NCBI GenBank assembly: GCA_002784795.1
Contig: PFLZ01000111.1
Location: forward strand, 1-22,513
Direction: 5' to 3'
Origin: Candidatus Magasanikbacteria bacterium CG_4_10_14_0_8_um_filter_42_12
GTDB taxonomy: Bacteria; Patescibacteriota; Patescibacteriia; Magasanikbacterales; UBA922
DNA: 22,513 bases
Positions 898 through 8,129 of this stretch are shown here, piece after piece. The position numbers were made by a program, and so were the translations under genes. The number at the start of each line of letters is the position of its first letter. The first letter of the stretch is position 1. Under the pieces are notes generated by a model. That model ran no database searches. It was not told the origin of the DNA and saw only the letters and a program-made list of their open reading frames with translations.

Positions 898-1365
898 ATG
901 ACAGACACTACACAATATCTTTCACAAGAAAAAAAAAGTGAGCTCGAGCAAGAATTGGTACAACTCAAATCAACAAAAATTCCAGAGATTGCCCAGCGCA
1001 TAGATGAAGCAAAACAAATGGGAGATCTTTCTGAAAATGCCGAATACCATGATGCACGAGACCAAATGGCGTGGGCACAGAGTCGTGTCCTAGAGATTGA
1101 AGCTATTTTGCTCAATGCAAAGGTTATCACAGCAACAGGATCTAACGATGGTTTTGTTGACCTCGGAGCAACAGTGGTCGTGAAGGTCAATGGAAAAGAA
1201 AAAGAATATACTATCGTAGGAGCACAAGAGGCCGATCCACTTGCCGGAAAAATTTCAAATGAATCACCGCTTGGTGGAGCGTTTCTTGGAAAAAAGAAAG
1301 GCGATAAAGTAGAAGTAAAAGTGCCTGCTGGAATGCAGGAATATAAGATTCTTTCGGTGAAGTAA
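898..1365 (+). CDS. greA: Transcription elongation factor GreA
   Basis: GreA enters the secondary channel of RNA polymerase and stimulates cleavage of backtracked transcripts. The 155-residue product matches the usual family length. Residues 1 to about 78 form the N-terminal antiparallel coiled coil, with the acidic tip motif GDLSENAEYHDARD; D43 and E46 correspond to the conserved tip acids (D41 and E44 in E. coli). The C-terminal FKBP-like domain carries the typical block ADPLAGKISNESPLGGAFLG near residues 105-125. The ATG at 898 gives the standard N-terminus and has no Shine-Dalgarno sequence, like most genes here. The gene stands alone, with a structured leader upstream and a palindrome plus terminator downstream. 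Confidence 0.97.
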   Translation: MTDTTQYLSQEKKSELEQELVQLKSTKIPEIAQRIDEAKQMGDLSENAEYHDARDQMAWAQSRVLEIEAILLNAKVITATGSNDGFVDLGATVVVKVNGKEKEYTIVGAQEADPLAGKISNESPLGGAFLGKKKGDKVEVKVPAGMQEYKILSVK

Positions 1366-1389: not shown

Positions 1390-1401
1390 TGGATGCACAC
1401 G

Positions 1402-1431
1402 AAAGACACGTCAGGATAGGCGTGTTTTTTT
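1402..1431 (+). terminator. Intrinsic terminator behind greA
   Basis: The arms AAAGACACG (1402-1410) and CGTGTTTTT (1421-1429) pair around a 10-base loop with one G-U pair, and a run of seven T follows C-G-T-G (1425-1431). It lies 37 bases behind the greA stop and directly before the TTGACA of the next promoter. Confidence 0.7.
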
Positions 1432-1433
1432 CG

Positions 1434-1462
1434 TTGACAAAAAATAAAAAATAAGATACATA
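1434..1462 (+). promoter_or_regulatory. Promoter of the small-gene pair at 1491-1952
   Basis: A perfect -35 TTGACA (1434-1439) is followed after 17 bases by TACATA (1457-1462), a weak -10. Alternative registers in the TACATATAT stretch are possible. The start of transcription would fall near 1470, about 20 bases before the ATG at 1491. The -35 is convincing; the exact -10 is not. Confidence 0.6.
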
Positions 1463-1490
1463 TATGCTTACAGAAGCAACGGAGGGCACC

Positions 1491-1643
1491 ATGTCTTTTT
1501 TCGTACAGGTCGATGATGAGCGGGATGTCGAGATGGCGAAGGAGGTCATCCGGAGGGAGAACGCTGAGCAGGCTGCGAAGCTGCGAAGGGGGCAGAACGA
1601 CGAGAAGCCCGATAACAACGACCACGATCGAACCAGGAGGTAG
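1491..1643 (+). CDS. Small hydrophilic protein of unknown function (50 aa)
   Basis: I do not recognise this protein. It begins MSFFVQVDDERDVEMAKEVI and ends in a strongly charged tail rich in Asn, Asp and Arg (KPDNNDHDRTRR). The middle, about residues 10-35, could be one amphipathic helix. A GGAGG Shine-Dalgarno (1481-1485) stands 5 bases before the ATG, which is exceptional in this window. The next gene starts 3 bases after the stop, with its own AGGAGG inside the last codons, so the two are very likely translated together. Codons are GC-rich: 35 of the 60 bases at 1501-1560 are G or C, against 27 of 60 at 2701-2760 in lysS. A real gene is supported by promoter, ribosome site and coupling, not by homology. 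Confidence 0.6.
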   Translation: MSFFVQVDDERDVEMAKEVIRRENAEQAAKLRRGQNDEKPDNNDHDRTRR

Positions 1644-1646
1644 AAA

Positions 1647-1952
1647 ATGGTAATAAGAGTAGGCTACAGTCTCATCGACGTGAACATCGGCGGACACAGA
1701 GTCAAGACCCGCGAGTTTTGGCTTAACGTTTCGGCACCGCCTATGCCGGGGCATGATGTCATACTCCGCCTTCGCGACGAGGAGACGACCTGCGTCCACG
1801 GGCAAGTCTGTCATTCTACACAGGATCCCTGCCTCGACGTGTGGCACGTGGAAGTGAACGTGCTGCAGGATCCCGACGAGTCCGAGCGGCTTTGTGAGAT
1901 GGCCGAGCAGTTCGGTGTTCTGAACGAGACATGTCCACCGTCGAAGGGCTGA
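1647..1952 (+). CDS. Unrecognised GC-rich small protein (101 aa)
   Basis: I do not recognise the family. The product starts MVIRVGYSLIDVNIGGHRVK and looks like a small mixed alpha/beta soluble protein without signal peptide or membrane segment. It has four Cys, three of them in the central CVHGQVCHSTQDPCLDVWHVEV region, where the two His could join the Cys in a metal site, although the spacing fits no zinc ribbon I know. A perfect AGGAGG (1635-1640) stands 6 bases before the ATG. The gene is coupled to the 50-aa gene upstream (3-base gap). Base composition is clearly richer in GC than neighbours (38 of 60 bases at 1741-1800). A strong hairpin follows 21 bases after the stop. Composition and ribosome site suggest acquisition from elsewhere; function unknown. 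Confidence 0.65.
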   Translation: MVIRVGYSLIDVNIGGHRVKTREFWLNVSAPPMPGHDVILRLRDEETTCVHGQVCHSTQDPCLDVWHVEVNVLQDPDESERLCEMAEQFGVLNETCPPSKG

Positions 1953-1973
1953 GCTGACAGCAAGAGTGAGAGT

Positions 1974-2008
1974 GAGAGTGCCTGGCGTTTTACACGCCGG
2001 GCACTCTC
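1974..2008 (+). terminator. GC-rich 3' hairpin of the small-gene pair
   Basis: A 14-bp stem pairs 1974-1987 (GAGAGTGCCTGGCG) with 1995-2008 around the loop TTTTACA; its one non-Watson-Crick pair is U-G. It begins 21 bases after the stop at 1952. The following TGAATATTCTAAAA has no T-run, so on its own it looks more like a transcript-end stabiliser or part of a double terminator with the hairpin at 2033-2062. Confidence 0.55.
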
Positions 2009-2032
2009 TGAATATTCTAAAATTGCACAAAC

Positions 2033-2062
2033 AAAAAAACACGCTCAAATCGAGCGTGTTTT
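2033..2062. terminator. Bidirectional terminator between converging small genes
   Basis: AAAACACGCTC (2036-2046) and GAGCGTGTTTT (2052-2062) form a perfect 11-bp stem with loop AAATC. Seven A precede C2040 (2033-2039), so the minus-strand transcript ends in a U7 tract and the plus-strand transcript in U4. It can end both the 1491-1952 unit and the 2145-2474 gene. Confidence 0.8.
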
Positions 2063-2079
2063 GTAATATATGAAAGAAT

Positions 2080-2120
2080 GTGAATGCCCGCCCGTGTTGA
2101 CCGATCGGGCGGGCATTCAC
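2080..2120 (-). terminator. GC-rich 3' hairpin of the minus-strand small gene
   Basis: A perfect 15-bp stem pairs GTGAATGCCCGCCCG (2080-2094) with 2106-2120 around an 11-base loop. It lies 24 bases beyond the stop of the minus-strand gene at 2145. No T-run follows on the minus strand, so it mirrors the hairpin at 1974-2008 and probably works with the central terminator. Confidence 0.55.
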
Positions 2121-2144
2121 GTGCGGGACGGCGTGGACGTTGAG

Positions 2145-2474
2145 TTAGGACGTCCTGTCAGTGAGGTACTTCTCGAGCGACGGCTCGGAATCGGGCGACG
2201 TGAAGCGCCAGAAGTGCTTGACGCCGGGCTTGGACCGCATCTCATACGTGACCTTCAGCCCGGTCGCCACTTGGAGCAGCGGGAGGATGCACGCGAACAT
2301 CACATCAGGGCTTGTCATGATCTTGTCGTCGCGAGCCCCTGGGCCACTGAACCAAACCAATTGATCCCCCTCCGTTGGATGGTTGTAGGTGATGGTCATC
2401 TGACCGGACTCTAGTTCGAATGAGACTCTTGAGATCCTGCACAGATCCTCGAGGCTCATGTTATGAAAGAACAT
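2145..2474 (-). CDS. Unrecognised GC-rich small protein (109 aa)
   Basis: I do not recognise this protein. The start at 2474 is chosen because AAGGAG (plus-strand 2485-2490) stands 10 bases upstream. A longer in-frame start at 2528 would lie inside the -10 box of the promoter at 2527-2556, so it cannot be on that transcript. The product begins MFFHNMSLEDLCRISRVSFE; the middle contains TITYNHPTEGDQLVWFSGPG and a hydrophobic stretch MFACILPLLQVATGLKV (about residues 58-74) that could be a buried helix but is too polar around it for a clear membrane anchor. The tail is charged. Composition is GC-rich (35 of 60 bases at 2281-2340). Its own promoter, Shine-Dalgarno and 3' hairpin make a real, independently transcribed gene likely. 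Confidence 0.6.
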   Translation of the reverse strand: MFFHNMSLEDLCRISRVSFELESGQMTITYNHPTEGDQLVWFSGPGARDDKIMTSPDVMFACILPLLQVATGLKVTYEMRSKPGVKHFWRFTSPDSEPSLEKYLTDRTS

Positions 2475-2526
2475 AAAGTGGCGACTCCTTGTCCGCGTGT
2501 AGAGAAAATTGATAAACGGACAAGAC

Positions 2527-2556
2527 ATTATGGCTACATTTATATCATTTTGTCAA
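2527..2556 (-). promoter_or_regulatory. Promoter of the minus-strand small gene
   Basis: Read on the minus strand, TTGACA (plus-strand 2551-2556) is followed after 18 bases by CATAAT (plus-strand 2527-2532). This is a strong sigma-70 type match. Transcription would start near 2520, giving a leader of about 46 bases before the ATG at 2474. Confidence 0.75.
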
Positions 2557-2666: not shown

Positions 2667-4757
2667 ATGCCAAAACTAGAAATAGATATTAATGACGAAA
2701 GAACAGTGAGATTAGCAAAACTTGCCACGTTGACAGAAGCAGGGAATTCTTCATTTCCTGCACATTCAGAAAAGCAACAAACTATCGCCGAAGCCGTCCT
2801 GAGTACAGAAGGAAGTACGGTAGTCACTGCAGGAAGAATCATGTCAAAACGAGAAATTGGCAAGCTGACATTTTGCAGACTTGAAGATGCTAGTGGGAGT
2901 ATTCAGCTCGTGCTCAAACAGGATGAACTTGATACTGAATTGTATAAACAGTTTGTAAGACAGGTCGACGCAGGCGATGTTGTCGATGTGACAGGAGAGA
3001 GATTTCAATCAAAGACAGGAGAGGATTCTATTTTGGTAAAAAAGTACTCAGTTTTGACAAAGGCACTGTTGCCACTGCCAGACAAATTTCACGGATTACA
3101 GAATGAAGAGCTCCGCATGCGAAAACGCTATCTCGATTTGCTCACGAATCCAGAACTCCGCGATATCTTTGTAAAGCGTGCACACTTTTGGGATGTCACC
3201 AGAACTTTTTTGAAAGATAATGGTTTTTTTGAAGTAGAAACACCCTATCTGGAAACAACCACCGGTGGCGCAGAGGCAACACCCTTTGCCACGCACCACA
3301 ATGATTTTGATATTGATGTGTATCTTCGCATTTCTGTCGGTGAACTTTGGCAAAAGCGTCTCATGGCCGCAGGCTTTGAAAAAACATTTGAAATCGGTCG
3401 TGTGTTTCGTAATGAAGGATCGAGTCCAGATCATTTGCAGGAATTCACCAACATGGAATTTTATTGGGCATACGCGGATTATAAAAAAGGCATGAAGCTT
3501 GTCCAAGAACTCTATCAAAAAATTGCGATCGATGTATTTGGCAAAACTGAGTTCACAACAAAAGGCATGAACTACGATCTTGCAGGAGAATGGCCAGAGA
3601 TAGATTATGTGAGTGAAGTAAAAAAACAAACAGGTGTTGATGTTCTGACAGCAACAGAAAATGATATGCGAAAAAAGCTGGATGAGCTAGGTGTCGTCTA
3701 TGAAGGAACAAATCGCGAACGACTCACAGACACGCTCTGGAAATTTTGTCGAAAGAATATTGCAGGGCCAGCATTCCTCGTGAATCATCCAAAACTCGTT
3801 TCACCACTCGCAAAAACACATCGCGAACATCCAGAACTTACGGAACGATTTCAGATTATCATTGCCGGCAGTGAGATCGGCAATGGCTATTCAGAATTGA
3901 ATGATCCAATAGAACAACGAGCACGATTTGAAAAACAACAAGAACTTATCGCAGCGGGGGATACCGAGGCTATGATGCCAGACTGGGAGTTTGTAGAAAT
4001 GCTCGAGCACGGGATGCCTCCTACGTGTGGATTTGGATTTGGTGAACGACTGTTTGCCTTTCTCGTCGATAGGCCACTTCGTGAAGTGACACTGTTTCCA
4101 CTAGTGAAGCCGATTGAAGAAAAAGGAAACACTGGCAGTGCAGGGTTCAAAACAAAAGACAGTGATTTTGCATCGCTTCCTCTGTCTAGAGAAGAAGCTT
4201 GGAAACTCGTACAAACACACAATACAGAACAAAATGAGTTCAATCATTATCTCGAAAGTGAAGCCGTGATGCGTGGACTTGCAAAGAAACTTGGTCGCGA
4301 TGAGGAGTATTGGGGTATGCTTGGATTACTCCACGATCTCGACTGGCACATGACAAAAGACCATGATATTGATCACATTACAAAATCACCAGACTTACTC
4401 CGCGAAGCTGGATTTGGGGAAGATTTCATCGACATTATTATTTCCCATGGCTTTGGTACGACATGTGGTGGGGGAGAACTGGAACAAAAAAAACGTACTC
4501 GCGATATAGAACATGCACTCTCTGCAGCAGAGACCGTGACAGGATTAATTCATGCGTATGCATTGATGAAAGGTGGACAAATTTCAACAGTCGAAGCAAA
4601 GTCAGTCAAGAAAAAATTCAAAGACAAAAAATTTGCAGCAAAAGTCAGACGTGATTTTATCGAAGAAGCAGAAAAATTGGGATTGACGCTGGATGAATTC
4701 TTTGAAATTGCTATCGATTCGATTCGTAGCATTGCAAAAGATGTTGAGCTTACATAA
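2667..4757 (+). CDS. lysS: Lysyl-tRNA synthetase (class II) fused to an HD-hydrolase domain
   Basis: Residues 1 to about 480 are a class II LysRS that charges tRNA-Lys in the cytoplasm. An N-terminal OB-fold anticodon-binding domain (about 50-140, with GRIMSKREIGKLTFCRLED) precedes the catalytic core. Motif 2 is FRNEGSSPDHLQEFTNMEF (R248 of FRNE) and motif 3 is GFGFGERLFAF (R461). After REVTLFPLVKP and a linker of about 30 residues comes an HD-superfamily domain, roughly 510-696, with H556-D557 in GLLHDLDWHM, later ISHGFG, and AAETVTGLIHAYAL, followed by SVKKKFKDKKFAAKVRR. That tail resembles the stand-alone predicted hydrolases of COG2316, in my recollection of that family, where the AAE position is usually AAD. 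Ordinary bacterial LysRS is about 500 residues, so the extra 190 are a genuine in-frame extension. The cytidylyltransferase follows after 2 bases. Confidence 0.93.
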   Translation: MPKLEIDINDERTVRLAKLATLTEAGNSSFPAHSEKQQTIAEAVLSTEGSTVVTAGRIMSKREIGKLTFCRLEDASGSIQLVLKQDELDTELYKQFVRQVDAGDVVDVTGERFQSKTGEDSILVKKYSVLTKALLPLPDKFHGLQNEELRMRKRYLDLLTNPELRDIFVKRAHFWDVTRTFLKDNGFFEVETPYLETTTGGAEATPFATHHNDFDIDVYLRISVGELWQKRLMAAGFEKTFEIGRVFRNEGSSPDHLQEFTNMEFYWAYADYKKGMKLVQELYQKIAIDVFGKTEFTTKGMNYDLAGEWPEIDYVSEVKKQTGVDVLTATENDMRKKLDELGVVYEGTNRERLTDTLWKFCRKNIAGPAFLVNHPKLVSPLAKTHREHPELTERFQIIIAGSEIGNGYSELNDPIEQRARFEKQQELIAAGDTEAMMPDWEFVEMLEHGMPPTCGFGFGERLFAFLVDRPLREVTLFPLVKPIEEKGNTGSAGFKTKDSDFASLPLSREEAWKLVQTHNTEQNEFNHYLESEAVMRGLAKKLGRDEEYWGMLGLLHDLDWHMTKDHDIDHITKSPDLLREAGFGEDFIDIIISHGFGTTCGGGELEQKKRTRDIEHALSAAETVTGLIHAYALMKGGQISTVEAKSVKKKFKDKKFAAKVRRDFIEEAEKLGLTLDEFFEIAIDSIRSIAKDVELT

Positions 4758-4759
4758 AT

Positions 4760-5176
4760 ATGAAAACAGTTTTATTGTTTGGCACATTTGATTTTCTCCA
4801 TAGTGGACATATCTTCACGTTCGAAGAAGCAAAGAAATTGGGTGACAAACTTGTCGTGTCAGTTGCGAGAGATAGTGCTGTTGAAAAAATAAAAGGCAAA
4901 AAACCACTGCATGCAGAAGAAGAACGATTAGCACTTGTCAAACATATTGATATTGTCAATGATGCATTTCTCGGCGACGAAGAGCAAAGTGTGTATTCCT
5001 TTTTTTCAGAATTTGTTCCAGACGTGATCGCACTTGGGTATGATCAGGATGCATTGAAAGTTGATATTGAAACATTTTTGAAGGAACACAACATCACTGC
5101 AACCTGTCTCACACTCCCGGCATACAAACCTGAGCAGATGAAATCAAGCAAGATAAAAGAATCATTTGGTATATGA
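4760..5176 (+). CDS. Cytidylyltransferase-like nucleotidyltransferase
   Basis: This 138-residue protein is a compact HxGH nucleotidyltransferase. The signature GTFDFLHSGH (residues 8-17, H14 and H17) opens the nucleotide-binding fold; VVSVARDSAVEKIKG and the C-terminal SSKIKES supply the second conserved block. Size and motifs fit the group of glycerol-3-phosphate cytidylyltransferases (TagD) and archaeal-type FAD synthases (RibL); the GYDQD segment near residue 93 is like the latter. The substrate cannot be fixed from sequence. The gene starts 2 bases after the lysS stop and overlaps the next start by 4 bases (ATGA), so it belongs to the lysS operon. No Shine-Dalgarno; translation is probably coupled. 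Confidence 0.85.
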   Translation: MKTVLLFGTFDFLHSGHIFTFEEAKKLGDKLVVSVARDSAVEKIKGKKPLHAEEERLALVKHIDIVNDAFLGDEEQSVYSFFSEFVPDVIALGYDQDALKVDIETFLKEHNITATCLTLPAYKPEQMKSSKIKESFGI

Positions 5177-6222
5177 AACGAAGAAAATTGTTAATTGCTA
5201 CAACAAACCCAGGAAAGATAAGTGAGATCACGCACTTTTTAAAGTCACTTCCATTCCATCTCGTACTGTTGAAAGACCTCGATATGCACATTGAGGAACC
5301 AAAAGAAACAGGTGAAACACTACAAGATAATGCAATTCTCAAAGCAATGTATTACGCCGAAAAGACAAACATGCTCACGCTTGCGGATGACGGAGGACTA
5401 TTTATCGATGCACTGGATGGTTGGCCAGGTGTGAAAAGTGCACGTTCATTTCATGGTACGAGCGTTCTCGAAGATGATGCAATGCTCAAGGCACTAGAAG
5501 AAGTTCCCGATGATAATCGAAGTGCTGAATTCCATCTTGTCACAGCTATTTATGATCCATCAGAAAAAACTGTCTTTACCGCATCAGGGATAGATACTGG
5601 AGAAGTATTGAAAAAACCTATGACTACAGGTAATGTCAAATGGGGCTACAACAACGTATTTTATTCCCAAGCACTTGGCAAAACCTACGGGGAAATGAGT
5701 ATCGCAGAAAAAAATGGCATCAGTCATAGAGGCAAATCCTTATCACAAATCAAATACTTCCTCCAAAATCAATACGGAGGAAAACACTTCGTCGTCCCAA
5801 TCGCAATTGTCGTGCGTGATGGAAAGATTCTGATGAATAAACGCAACGATCCTCACAATCCACAATTTCATGAAGTCTGGGAATTCCCAGGCGGATCAGT
5901 CGAAATAGGGGAGAGTGTAGAACAAAATGTTGTACGTGAATGCAAAGAAGAAACCGGGTATGATGTAGAAGTCATCGAACAACTCCCCTTTGTACGAGTA
6001 AAAACCCGACATATTGAAAAATTCAGCTATCAAATTTATCTCATCCCCGTTGTCTGTAAAATTACAGGAGGGGATGGCGTATTCAGTGATGACGAAGTGC
6101 TGGAAATGAGATGGTACTCTCCGGAAGAAATCCCATCGCTCAAACTTTTCCCAGACGACGGCAACATGGTCTCCGAATATCTAGAAATGATTAAAGATGC
6201 GATATCGAGAAACGATCTATAA
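5173..6222 (+). CDS. RdgB/HAM1-type XTP/dITP pyrophosphatase fused to a NUDIX hydrolase
   Basis: Two house-cleaning enzymes are joined in one 349-residue chain. Residues 1 to about 200 are a HAM1/RdgB domain that hydrolyses non-canonical purine triphosphates such as XTP, ITP and dITP. Visible are the N-terminal ATTNPGKISEI, the central ADDGGLFIDALDGWPGVKSARSFHG, and MSIAEKNGISHRGKSL near 175-190. Residues about 205-345 are a NUDIX domain with a complete box: G241, five residues, E247, seven residues, R255-E256, E259-E260, G262. The domain begins FVVPIAIVVRDGKILMNKR, typical of MutT-like proteins. The HAM1 motif DDGGL replaces the common DDSGL. The start overlaps the previous gene by 4 bases. 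Both domains look catalytically complete; the NUDIX substrate is unknown. Confidence 0.93.
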   Translation: MKRRKLLIATTNPGKISEITHFLKSLPFHLVLLKDLDMHIEEPKETGETLQDNAILKAMYYAEKTNMLTLADDGGLFIDALDGWPGVKSARSFHGTSVLEDDAMLKALEEVPDDNRSAEFHLVTAIYDPSEKTVFTASGIDTGEVLKKPMTTGNVKWGYNNVFYSQALGKTYGEMSIAEKNGISHRGKSLSQIKYFLQNQYGGKHFVVPIAIVVRDGKILMNKRNDPHNPQFHEVWEFPGGSVEIGESVEQNVVRECKEETGYDVEVIEQLPFVRVKTRHIEKFSYQIYLIPVVCKITGGDGVFSDDEVLEMRWYSPEEIPSLKLFPDDGNMVSEYLEMIKDAISRNDL

Positions 6223-7604: not shown

Positions 7605-8129
7605 ATGCCTCTCAATCTCACAAAGCAATATCCTAAACGACCTCGCTTGCAGGATAAGAAAAGCTATATAGGTGTGCGAGGCTATTTTATAACTATCGGT
7701 ACATATAAAAGAATGTCATACTTCACGAAGGACAACGTAGTAAACTCATTAATTGCTTATTTACATGATGTGTCGACTGAGCATGTATTTGATGTTGTTG
7801 TATATTGTTTTATGCCTGACCACCTTCATCTTGTTTTAAAAGGAAAAAGTGAAGAAAGTAGTCTTTTAAAATTTGTGCACTCATTTAAACAAAAAACAGG
7901 ATATGCATTTCGTAAGGCTCATGAGAAACAACTCTGGGCAACGAGCTTTCATGACAGAGTACTGAGAAAGGTGGAAGATATTCGTGGAGTTGGACGCTAT
8001 ACCTTGGCGAATCCTGTGAAAGCAAATTTGGTTCGCTATCCTCTTGAGTATCCATATTCAGGATCGTTTGTGTATGATTTAAAGGAACTCATAGAAAGTG
8101 ATGCACCTGCATATTACGCTCAGGTCTGA
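7605..8129 (+). CDS. REP-associated tyrosine transposase (Y1/HUH, RAYT-like)
   Basis: This 174-residue single-strand endonuclease belongs to the IS200/IS605-like Y1 group. The HUH metal motif is in MPDHLHLVLKG (H73 and H75), and the likely catalytic tyrosine is Y132 in VGRYTLANPVKANLV, which matches the YI.NPV.A.LV pattern of RAYTs. The N-terminal RGYFITIGTYKRMSYF resembles the family's first strand (usually FVTIVT or similar). The ORF is intact, and its TGA stop (8127-8129) is embedded in the right palindrome. The gene is AT-rich like its neighbours, suggesting long residence. RAYTs are known to act on REP-type palindromes in other bacteria; action on these palindromes is inferred from proximity and matching copies. 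Confidence 0.9.
   Translation: MPLNLTKQYPKRPRLQDKKSYIGVRGYFITIGTYKRMSYFTKDNVVNSLIAYLHDVSTEHVFDVVVYCFMPDHLHLVLKGKSEESSLLKFVHSFKQKTGYAFRKAHEKQLWATSFHDRVLRKVEDIRGVGRYTLANPVKANLVRYPLEYPYSGSFVYDLKELIESDAPAYYAQV

Follow-up and report, generated by a model that had tools for sequence, protein, structure and literature searches.

The interval between greA and lysS at positions 1434-2556 of the window, the whole 22,513-nucleotide stretch analyzed here, contains three GC-rich open reading frames (ORFs) in two converging units. Comparison with related genomes suggests that this island probably consists of two self-sufficient accessory units belonging to a genus-level class of small genes of the moron or cassette type. 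Each unit comprises a TTGACA promoter, a strong Shine-Dalgarno (SD) site, GC-rich coding sequence (one ORF or two), and, at the 3' end, a strong hairpin. Composition, SD site, promoter word, and hairpins together form a signature by which an accessory class with fast turnover can be recognized without data other than sequence. The signature also yields exact unit boundaries, and sites such as greA-lysS allow the gain, loss, and replacement of units to be traced.

Layout and composition of the greA-lysS island

The source assembly comprises 1.04 Mb in 169 contigs. The best two matches of lysS among named genomes were Candidatus Magasanikbacteria (93 and 92% identity), and greA was present in 28 of the 29 lysS loci fetched from relatives. 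Homology between the window and the same-genus genome G002 starts just past the greA stop codon and runs to about position 1388. The features of the interval are listed in Table 1.

Table 1. Features of the greA-lysS interval, with positions in the window
Feature	Positions	Strand	Remarks
greA	898..1365	+	core gene at the upstream flank, GC3 0.31
greA terminator-like hairpin with T run	1399..1434	+	upstream edge of the island; fold 1380-1436 z -2.3
-35 TTGACA(AAAA) of the plus unit	1434..1439	+	-10 weak, absent from the list of the promoter scan
SD GGAGG of ORF1	1481..1485	+	5 nt upstream of ATG 1491
ORF1, 50 aa	1491..1643	+	charged
SD AGGAGG of ORF2	1635..1640	+	6 nt upstream of ATG 1647
ORF2, 101 aa	1647..1952	+	
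3' hairpin of the plus unit	1975..2007	+	fold 1949-2020 z -5.9
Terminator between the converging units	2036..2062	.	12-bp stem, T tract on the minus side, z -4.5
Minus-unit 3' hairpin, GC-rich	2080..2120	-	15-bp stem; kept in G003 despite a different ORF
ORF3, 109 aa	2145..2474	-	
SD AAGGAG of ORF3	2485..2490	-	10 nt upstream of ATG 2474
ORF3 promoter TTGACA-18-CATAAT	2527..2556	-	promoter scan 11/12, 18-nt spacer
lysS	2667..4757	+	flanking core gene, GC3 0.35

Both units terminate in strong hairpins. The two final ORF1 codons (AGG AGG) double as the SD site of ORF2, which suggests translational coupling of ORF1 and ORF2; a gap of 3 nt separates the two ORFs. The SD site of ORF3 is partly paired within a predicted 5' leader stem (leader fold z -2.0). 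A search of Rfam at gathering thresholds returned no match anywhere in the window.

The GC3 values of ORF1, ORF2, and ORF3 were 0.76, 0.69, and 0.77, respectively, against 0.31-0.35 for greA and lysS. In all three ORFs codon position 2 was the lowest in GC, which is the pattern of GC-rich coding DNA. Measured in 500-base windows, GC was 0.54-0.58 over positions 1501-2500 and about 0.36-0.47 elsewhere in the window. The single-line counts given in the first-pass annotation held inside the island (58.3, 63.3, and 58.3%), whereas its comparison line in lysS has 43.3% GC instead of the 45% reported. The same annotation had described a strong SD site before each of the three ORFs, at spacings of 5, 6, and 10 bases, and a TTGACA -35 element in both units; the sequences and spacings of the SD sites were confirmed, and the -35 elements were located at 1434-1439 on the plus strand and 2556-2551 on the minus strand. 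It had further stated that such SD sites are lacking elsewhere in the window. Consistently, none of 17 other starts, which include 12 of the 13 genes it had named (all except the DUF59 gene), had GGAGG, AGGAG, or AAGGAG in the preceding 20 bases.

Three further observations concern the genes around the island. The lysS gene (2667-4757) encodes a C-terminal HD domain (PF01966, residues 525-597); because the lysS frame has 492-493 amino acids in three same-genus genomes, that of the window is fused or extended. Ham1/RdgB and NUDIX domains share one 349-amino-acid frame at 5173-6222. An IS200-like Y1 transposase gene (PF01797, 40.9 bits) is located at 7605-8129, 5 kb from the island; transposases of this type act on hairpins, so that a link with the GC-rich hairpins is conceivable, but nothing ties this one to the units.

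States of the junction and relatives of the ORFs

Four same-genus genomes exhibited four states of the greA-lysS junction: empty, with an ORF1 relative, with a 124-amino-acid ORF, and with the three ORFs of the window. The junction of G002 is a 155-base AT-rich gap with no ORFs. That of G001 (locus L011) holds a single plus-strand ORF of 43 amino acids, which is identical to ORF1 at 15 of 43 aligned residues and likewise GC-rich (GC3 0.66); ORF2 is absent. The hairpin that follows this ORF pairs position by position with 1975-2007 of the window, with 13 pairs, two of them showing two-sided compensatory changes and one a one-sided change. G003 carries only the minus-strand unit, and the 124-amino-acid ORF stands in the place of ORF3. 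From the last codons of this ORF through the terminator hairpins, G003 and the window are 82% identical over 142 columns, and CTTGACAAAAT was found at the matching promoter place in G003 and in the window, where it belongs to the ORF3 promoter. The 124-amino-acid family gave no profile match to the ORF3 family (hhalign probability 0.1; the test is weak, with two sequences in each family). It was present in 2 of 95 genomes, and its other member, with 33% identity, lies on another contig of the window's own genome (L165).

The simplest reading of these alignments is replacement of the ORF at one kept terminator, together with gain or loss of ORF2 ahead of another. On this comparison, the parts of the island turn over separately, in a moron- or cassette-like manner, and not as one three-gene system. 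The proposal of the first-pass annotation that the block may encode one self-contained system conflicts with the separate variation of the units in G001, G003, and G002. The annotation had also named, as an outcome that would refute it, the presence of the same genes with matching codon use at this junction in all relatives; this outcome was not observed, and the one ORF1 relative at the junction is itself GC-rich.

At a second locus (L108), the ORF and its counterpart in G002 are about 30% identical (144 residues), whereas the flanks are 92-93% identical. The flanks of L108 and L245 contain repeat-like palindromic DNA beside the class ORF (GTAAGCAGAGTAAG words together with an inverted element resembling CATTCTGAATTTATTTCAG). 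L108 is the weaker case of replacement because its flanks hold such repeat-like DNA. Replacement of an ORF is suggested by one clean case, and the second could be fast divergence.

Relatives of the three ORFs were rare. Among 94 other related genomes, ORF1 had a strong match only in G001, and three short matches at E 0.08-0.41 were discounted; ORF2 had no match, and ORF3 had no convincing one (a hit in G051 at E 0.007, with an internal stop, was discounted). A search of 5.8 billion proteins, in which detection requires shared short words, returned only ORF2 itself for ORF2, itself and P0003 for ORF3, and itself and the 43-amino-acid protein for the ORF1 profile. P0003 is a 109-amino-acid relative of ORF3 with 73% identity, and its start at the same place supports the ORF3 start at 2474. 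Viral contigs contained no relative of the ORF1 family, ORF2, the ORF3 family, or the G003 ORF family, and no match was obtained in phage records with ORF3 as the query or in plasmids with ORF2 as the query.

The description of the three genes as unrecognized was borne out, in that no product had a family match above threshold. None of the ORFs exceeded the cut-off in Pfam or matched PADLOC (defense families) or NCBIfam, and the only match in PHROGs (E 0.07) was not a toxin. The PDB sequence search returned nothing for ORF2, and the ORF3 profile retrieved a single match (E 0.7). The AlphaFold2 models of ORF2 (single sequence, pLDDT 43) and ORF3 (two sequences, pLDDT 52) were too poor for a fold search. 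Residues 9-77 of ORF2 have a weak resemblance to PilZ (PF07238, E 0.044), which at 14.6 bits falls below the Pfam gathering cut-off of 22.5.

These results bear on the origin of the island. The first-pass annotation had held that the block was acquired from a different genome or from a phage or plasmid. The part of this claim that the data favor is acquisition from elsewhere, with which the foreign-looking composition, the empty junction in G002, and the near absence of relatives agree; a single acquired block is not supported, and a phage or plasmid source found no backing among viral contigs, phages, or plasmids for the queries run. Gain (or repeated loss) of the three genes is likely, and acquisition of the island is plausible. 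We regard it as quite improbable that the three genes arrived together, as one system, on a phage or plasmid that had a different host. The composition, the absence from G002, and the lack of convincing relatives of ORF2 and ORF3 in the 94 other related genomes would fit such a one-off event, whereas within the genus each unit varies independently of the other, G001 shares ORF1 and its hairpin with the window, genes of the same class occur genome-wide, and the viral contigs, the phages (ORF3), and the plasmids (ORF2) returned no match. An assembly artefact or contamination of the metagenome bin could be suspected from the 169 contigs and the abrupt change in composition; because the greA-lysS junctions of G001 and G003 also contain related elements, this explanation is scarcely credible.

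Toxin-antitoxin pairs typically have sizes like those of ORF1 (50 amino acids) and ORF2 (101 amino acids). The tandem arrangement of these small ORFs, with the 3-nt gap and the SD site of ORF2 inside ORF1, would suit a coupled antitoxin and toxin, with ORF3 as another small toxin or defense protein. However, the ORF1 relative stands alone in G001, which indicates that the pair is not kept together, and Pfam, PADLOC, PHROGs, and NCBIfam assigned no toxin or antitoxin family to the three ORFs. Within the class described below, the two PADLOC toxin hits (PsyrT and ShosT, E 0.003-0.004) are a PRPP synthetase (L105). A toxin-antitoxin system is accordingly very unlikely.

A genome-wide class of GC-rich, SD-led genes

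We sampled 81 pieces of the genome (588,669 bases including 27,100 N, a bit over half of the genome), namely contigs C1-C62 in order, with the window as C3, and 19 pieces picked for AGGAGG hits. The island, which the first-pass annotation had treated as singular, turned out not to be unique: the sampled genome and its genus contain dozens of such islands. The class densities per Mb were roughly 77 in the window's own genome, 141 in G002, 62 in G003, and 17 in G030, values that are upper-biased because the 19 pieces were chosen by AGGAGG; the SD fraction is possibly biased as well.

Eighty ORFs were selected solely by GC3 and codon-position pattern and compared with 305 long AT-rich genes. An SD site at a start within the first 30 codons was found in 29 of 78 testable GC-rich ORFs, against 3-7 (mean 5.7) in ten shifted controls, whereas by the same criterion only 7 of 293 long AT-rich genes had one (shifted controls 7-17, mean 11.2). 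When only the first start was considered, the counts were 14 of 74 GC-rich ORFs (shifted controls 0-3, mean 1.3) and 2 of 286 long AT-rich genes (shifted controls 3-7, mean 4.7). SD sites are thus not enriched in the core genes, and they are not clearly depleted either. Thirty of the 80 GC-rich ORFs were SD-led; L194 and L177 were dropped as likely spurious, which left a class of 28 (the membrane and folding-energy counts use 30).

The class genes share further signals. The promoter word TTGACAAAA occurred in the upstream regions of 9 of the 28 genes, with 0.15 expected. The 3' regions folded more strongly in the class (mean z -3.7, n = 27) than in the core (-1.1, n = 90; p 7e-6), and the mean folding energy of the start region was -11.0 kcal/mol (n = 30) compared with -6.9 kcal/mol in the core (n = 305). 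A stabilizing 5' hairpin, visible by eye in many units, was rejected as a class feature (class-wide p 0.18).

The class products are short and mostly unrelated to one another. At E 0.001, six Pfam families were matched, each in one of the 28 proteins (at most 6 of 28); three of the six are phosphoribosyl families, which we assigned to the PRPP synthetase L105, leaving about four proteins with a match. For contrast, 30 random core genes matched 78 families. Membrane or signal segments were predicted for 10 of 30 class proteins and 120 of 305 core proteins; the class is not richer in such segments, which gives no pointer to the cell surface. In the titles and abstracts that our literature search found, no such class was described.

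Individual members deserve mention. Two tandem GC-rich genes for small membrane-protein-like products, 57% identical, lie at L186:164-756, a unit duplicating in place. L163:9940-11595 is a GC-rich, SD-led gene for a 551-amino-acid, lipoprotein-like, Cys-rich protein with relatives among the class genes of G002 and G003. The PRPP synthetase gene (L105:100-1173) has a class-type promoter, SD site, and composition, and places a metabolic enzyme inside an accessory class.

Conservation of synteny was assessed with a G002 sample of 456,991 bases, restricted to genes whose surroundings fall inside it. Syntenic homologs existed for 5 of the 16 class genes, at a median identity of 58%, and for 99 of the 127 core genes, at a median of 84%; the identities differed (p 0.005). 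The presence of several syntenic homologs favors the view that these are old resident genes under vertical descent, whose proteins evolve fast and whose GC-rich codons and SD sites are kept for high expression. The same view draws on a comparison of eight class pairs, in which only 0.20-0.48 of the four-fold sites were identical and yet GC3 was 0.62-0.93. We considered this turnover at high GC3 as proof of GC maintenance and rejected it on the basis of a decay calculation whose clock came from 104 core-gene pairs (15,217 four-fold sites, identity 0.478). The class side of the model comprised four pairs with 176 four-fold sites, a fifth pair being below the E cut-off, and these four pairs require an ancestral GC4 of 0.78 (95% range 0.68-0.88). 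Such a value is quite possible, so maintenance of GC by selection is not required. Moreover, GC3 tended to be higher in class genes without a syntenic homolog (0.75, n = 11) than in those with one (0.67, n = 5; p 0.06), and presence is patchy. Vertical descent with selected composition is therefore an unlikely, although not negligible, account of the class. A reading by recent HGT only is neither required nor excluded by the synonymous turnover.

Proposed mechanism and likeness to known systems

The sequence data presented here demonstrate the two units with their signals, four states of the junction, and the class. In our preferred account, that of self-sufficient accessory units, transcription would be carried out by the housekeeping sigma factor and translation would depend on SD pairing; a leader that is GC-rich and more structured may need such pairing more than an AT-rich leader does. 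Because a unit carries its own signals, it would be expected to be expressed wherever it is inserted. Over evolution, the content would shift through gain and loss of whole units, through exchange of the ORF while the promoter site and terminator on either side of it are kept (ORF3 and the 124-amino-acid ORF), and through gain or loss of an ORF ahead of a kept hairpin (ORF2). Gain may involve foreign GC-rich DNA that is taken up and then recombines at the kept flanks. A count of repeated 9-mers in the regions flanking the 28 class genes tied no shared recombination site, target-site duplication, or mobility gene to the units.

The self-supplied signals matter here because the core genes have no SD enrichment while the 16S rRNA of the same-genus G002 keeps a normal anti-SD tail (CCTCC); the 16S-tail pattern was not found in the window's own assembly, which holds no 16S. 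The protein bS21 was detected in none of four genomes (G000-G003), whereas the same search was positive in 6 of 14 control genomes, and a Bacteroidia-like sequestration by bS21 is disfavored on this ground. It is conceivable, but doubtful, that two initiation regimes exist side by side, core mRNAs without SD sites and mobile GC-rich cassettes with strong ones, and that the cassettes are tunable as a class via ribosome changes or pre-adapted to SD-using exchange partners. The findings raise the testable question of why a cell whose core genes hardly use this ribosome signal has accessory genes that employ it.

Small genomes and numerous genes of unknown function are typical of CPR bacteria. For the products of the class, our guess is accessory proteins for biotic conflict with phage, host, or competitor; this role would agree with their rapid turnover, their small size, and the autonomy of the units, but the three ORFs of the window matched no defense family, and it is a weak favorite that we hold tentatively.

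Phage morons are autonomous accessory genes in prophages. The units resemble them in having their own promoter and terminator (although the plus-strand -10 is weak), a deviant base composition, small ORFans, and a patchy distribution among close relatives. They differ in that the island occupies the greA-lysS interval of a CPR bacterium, with the same two genes flanking the site in relatives, and in that ORF3 had no match in phage records and four queries had no relatives in viral contigs. Integron gene cassettes likewise combine an ORF with a 3' palindrome, exchange ORFs, and consist mostly of ORFans; the class units, in contrast, are scattered instead of forming one array and have promoters of their own. 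Among the words common to the 28 class 3' regions, only the 9-mer CGGGCGGGC (3 of 28) stands out besides T-rich ones. A study of the lgr genes of Protochlamydia reportedly singled out large G+C-rich genes in an obligate intracellular bacterium. Those genes also stand out in their genome by GC content, but they are said to be long and to encode leucine-rich repeats, whereas those of the class described here are short, and few of them are related.

Bacteroidia are reported to have SD-blind ribosomes and an SD-led rpsU, with bS21 as the sequestering protein (PMC9976891). The likeness lies in an intact anti-SD (here in G002), a core without SD enrichment, and a subset of genes with strong SD sites; the difference is that the SD-led set here consists of dozens of accessory ORFs and that bS21 was not found in the four genomes. 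Although the island is not located as a moron is, the class behaves like morons or cassettes.
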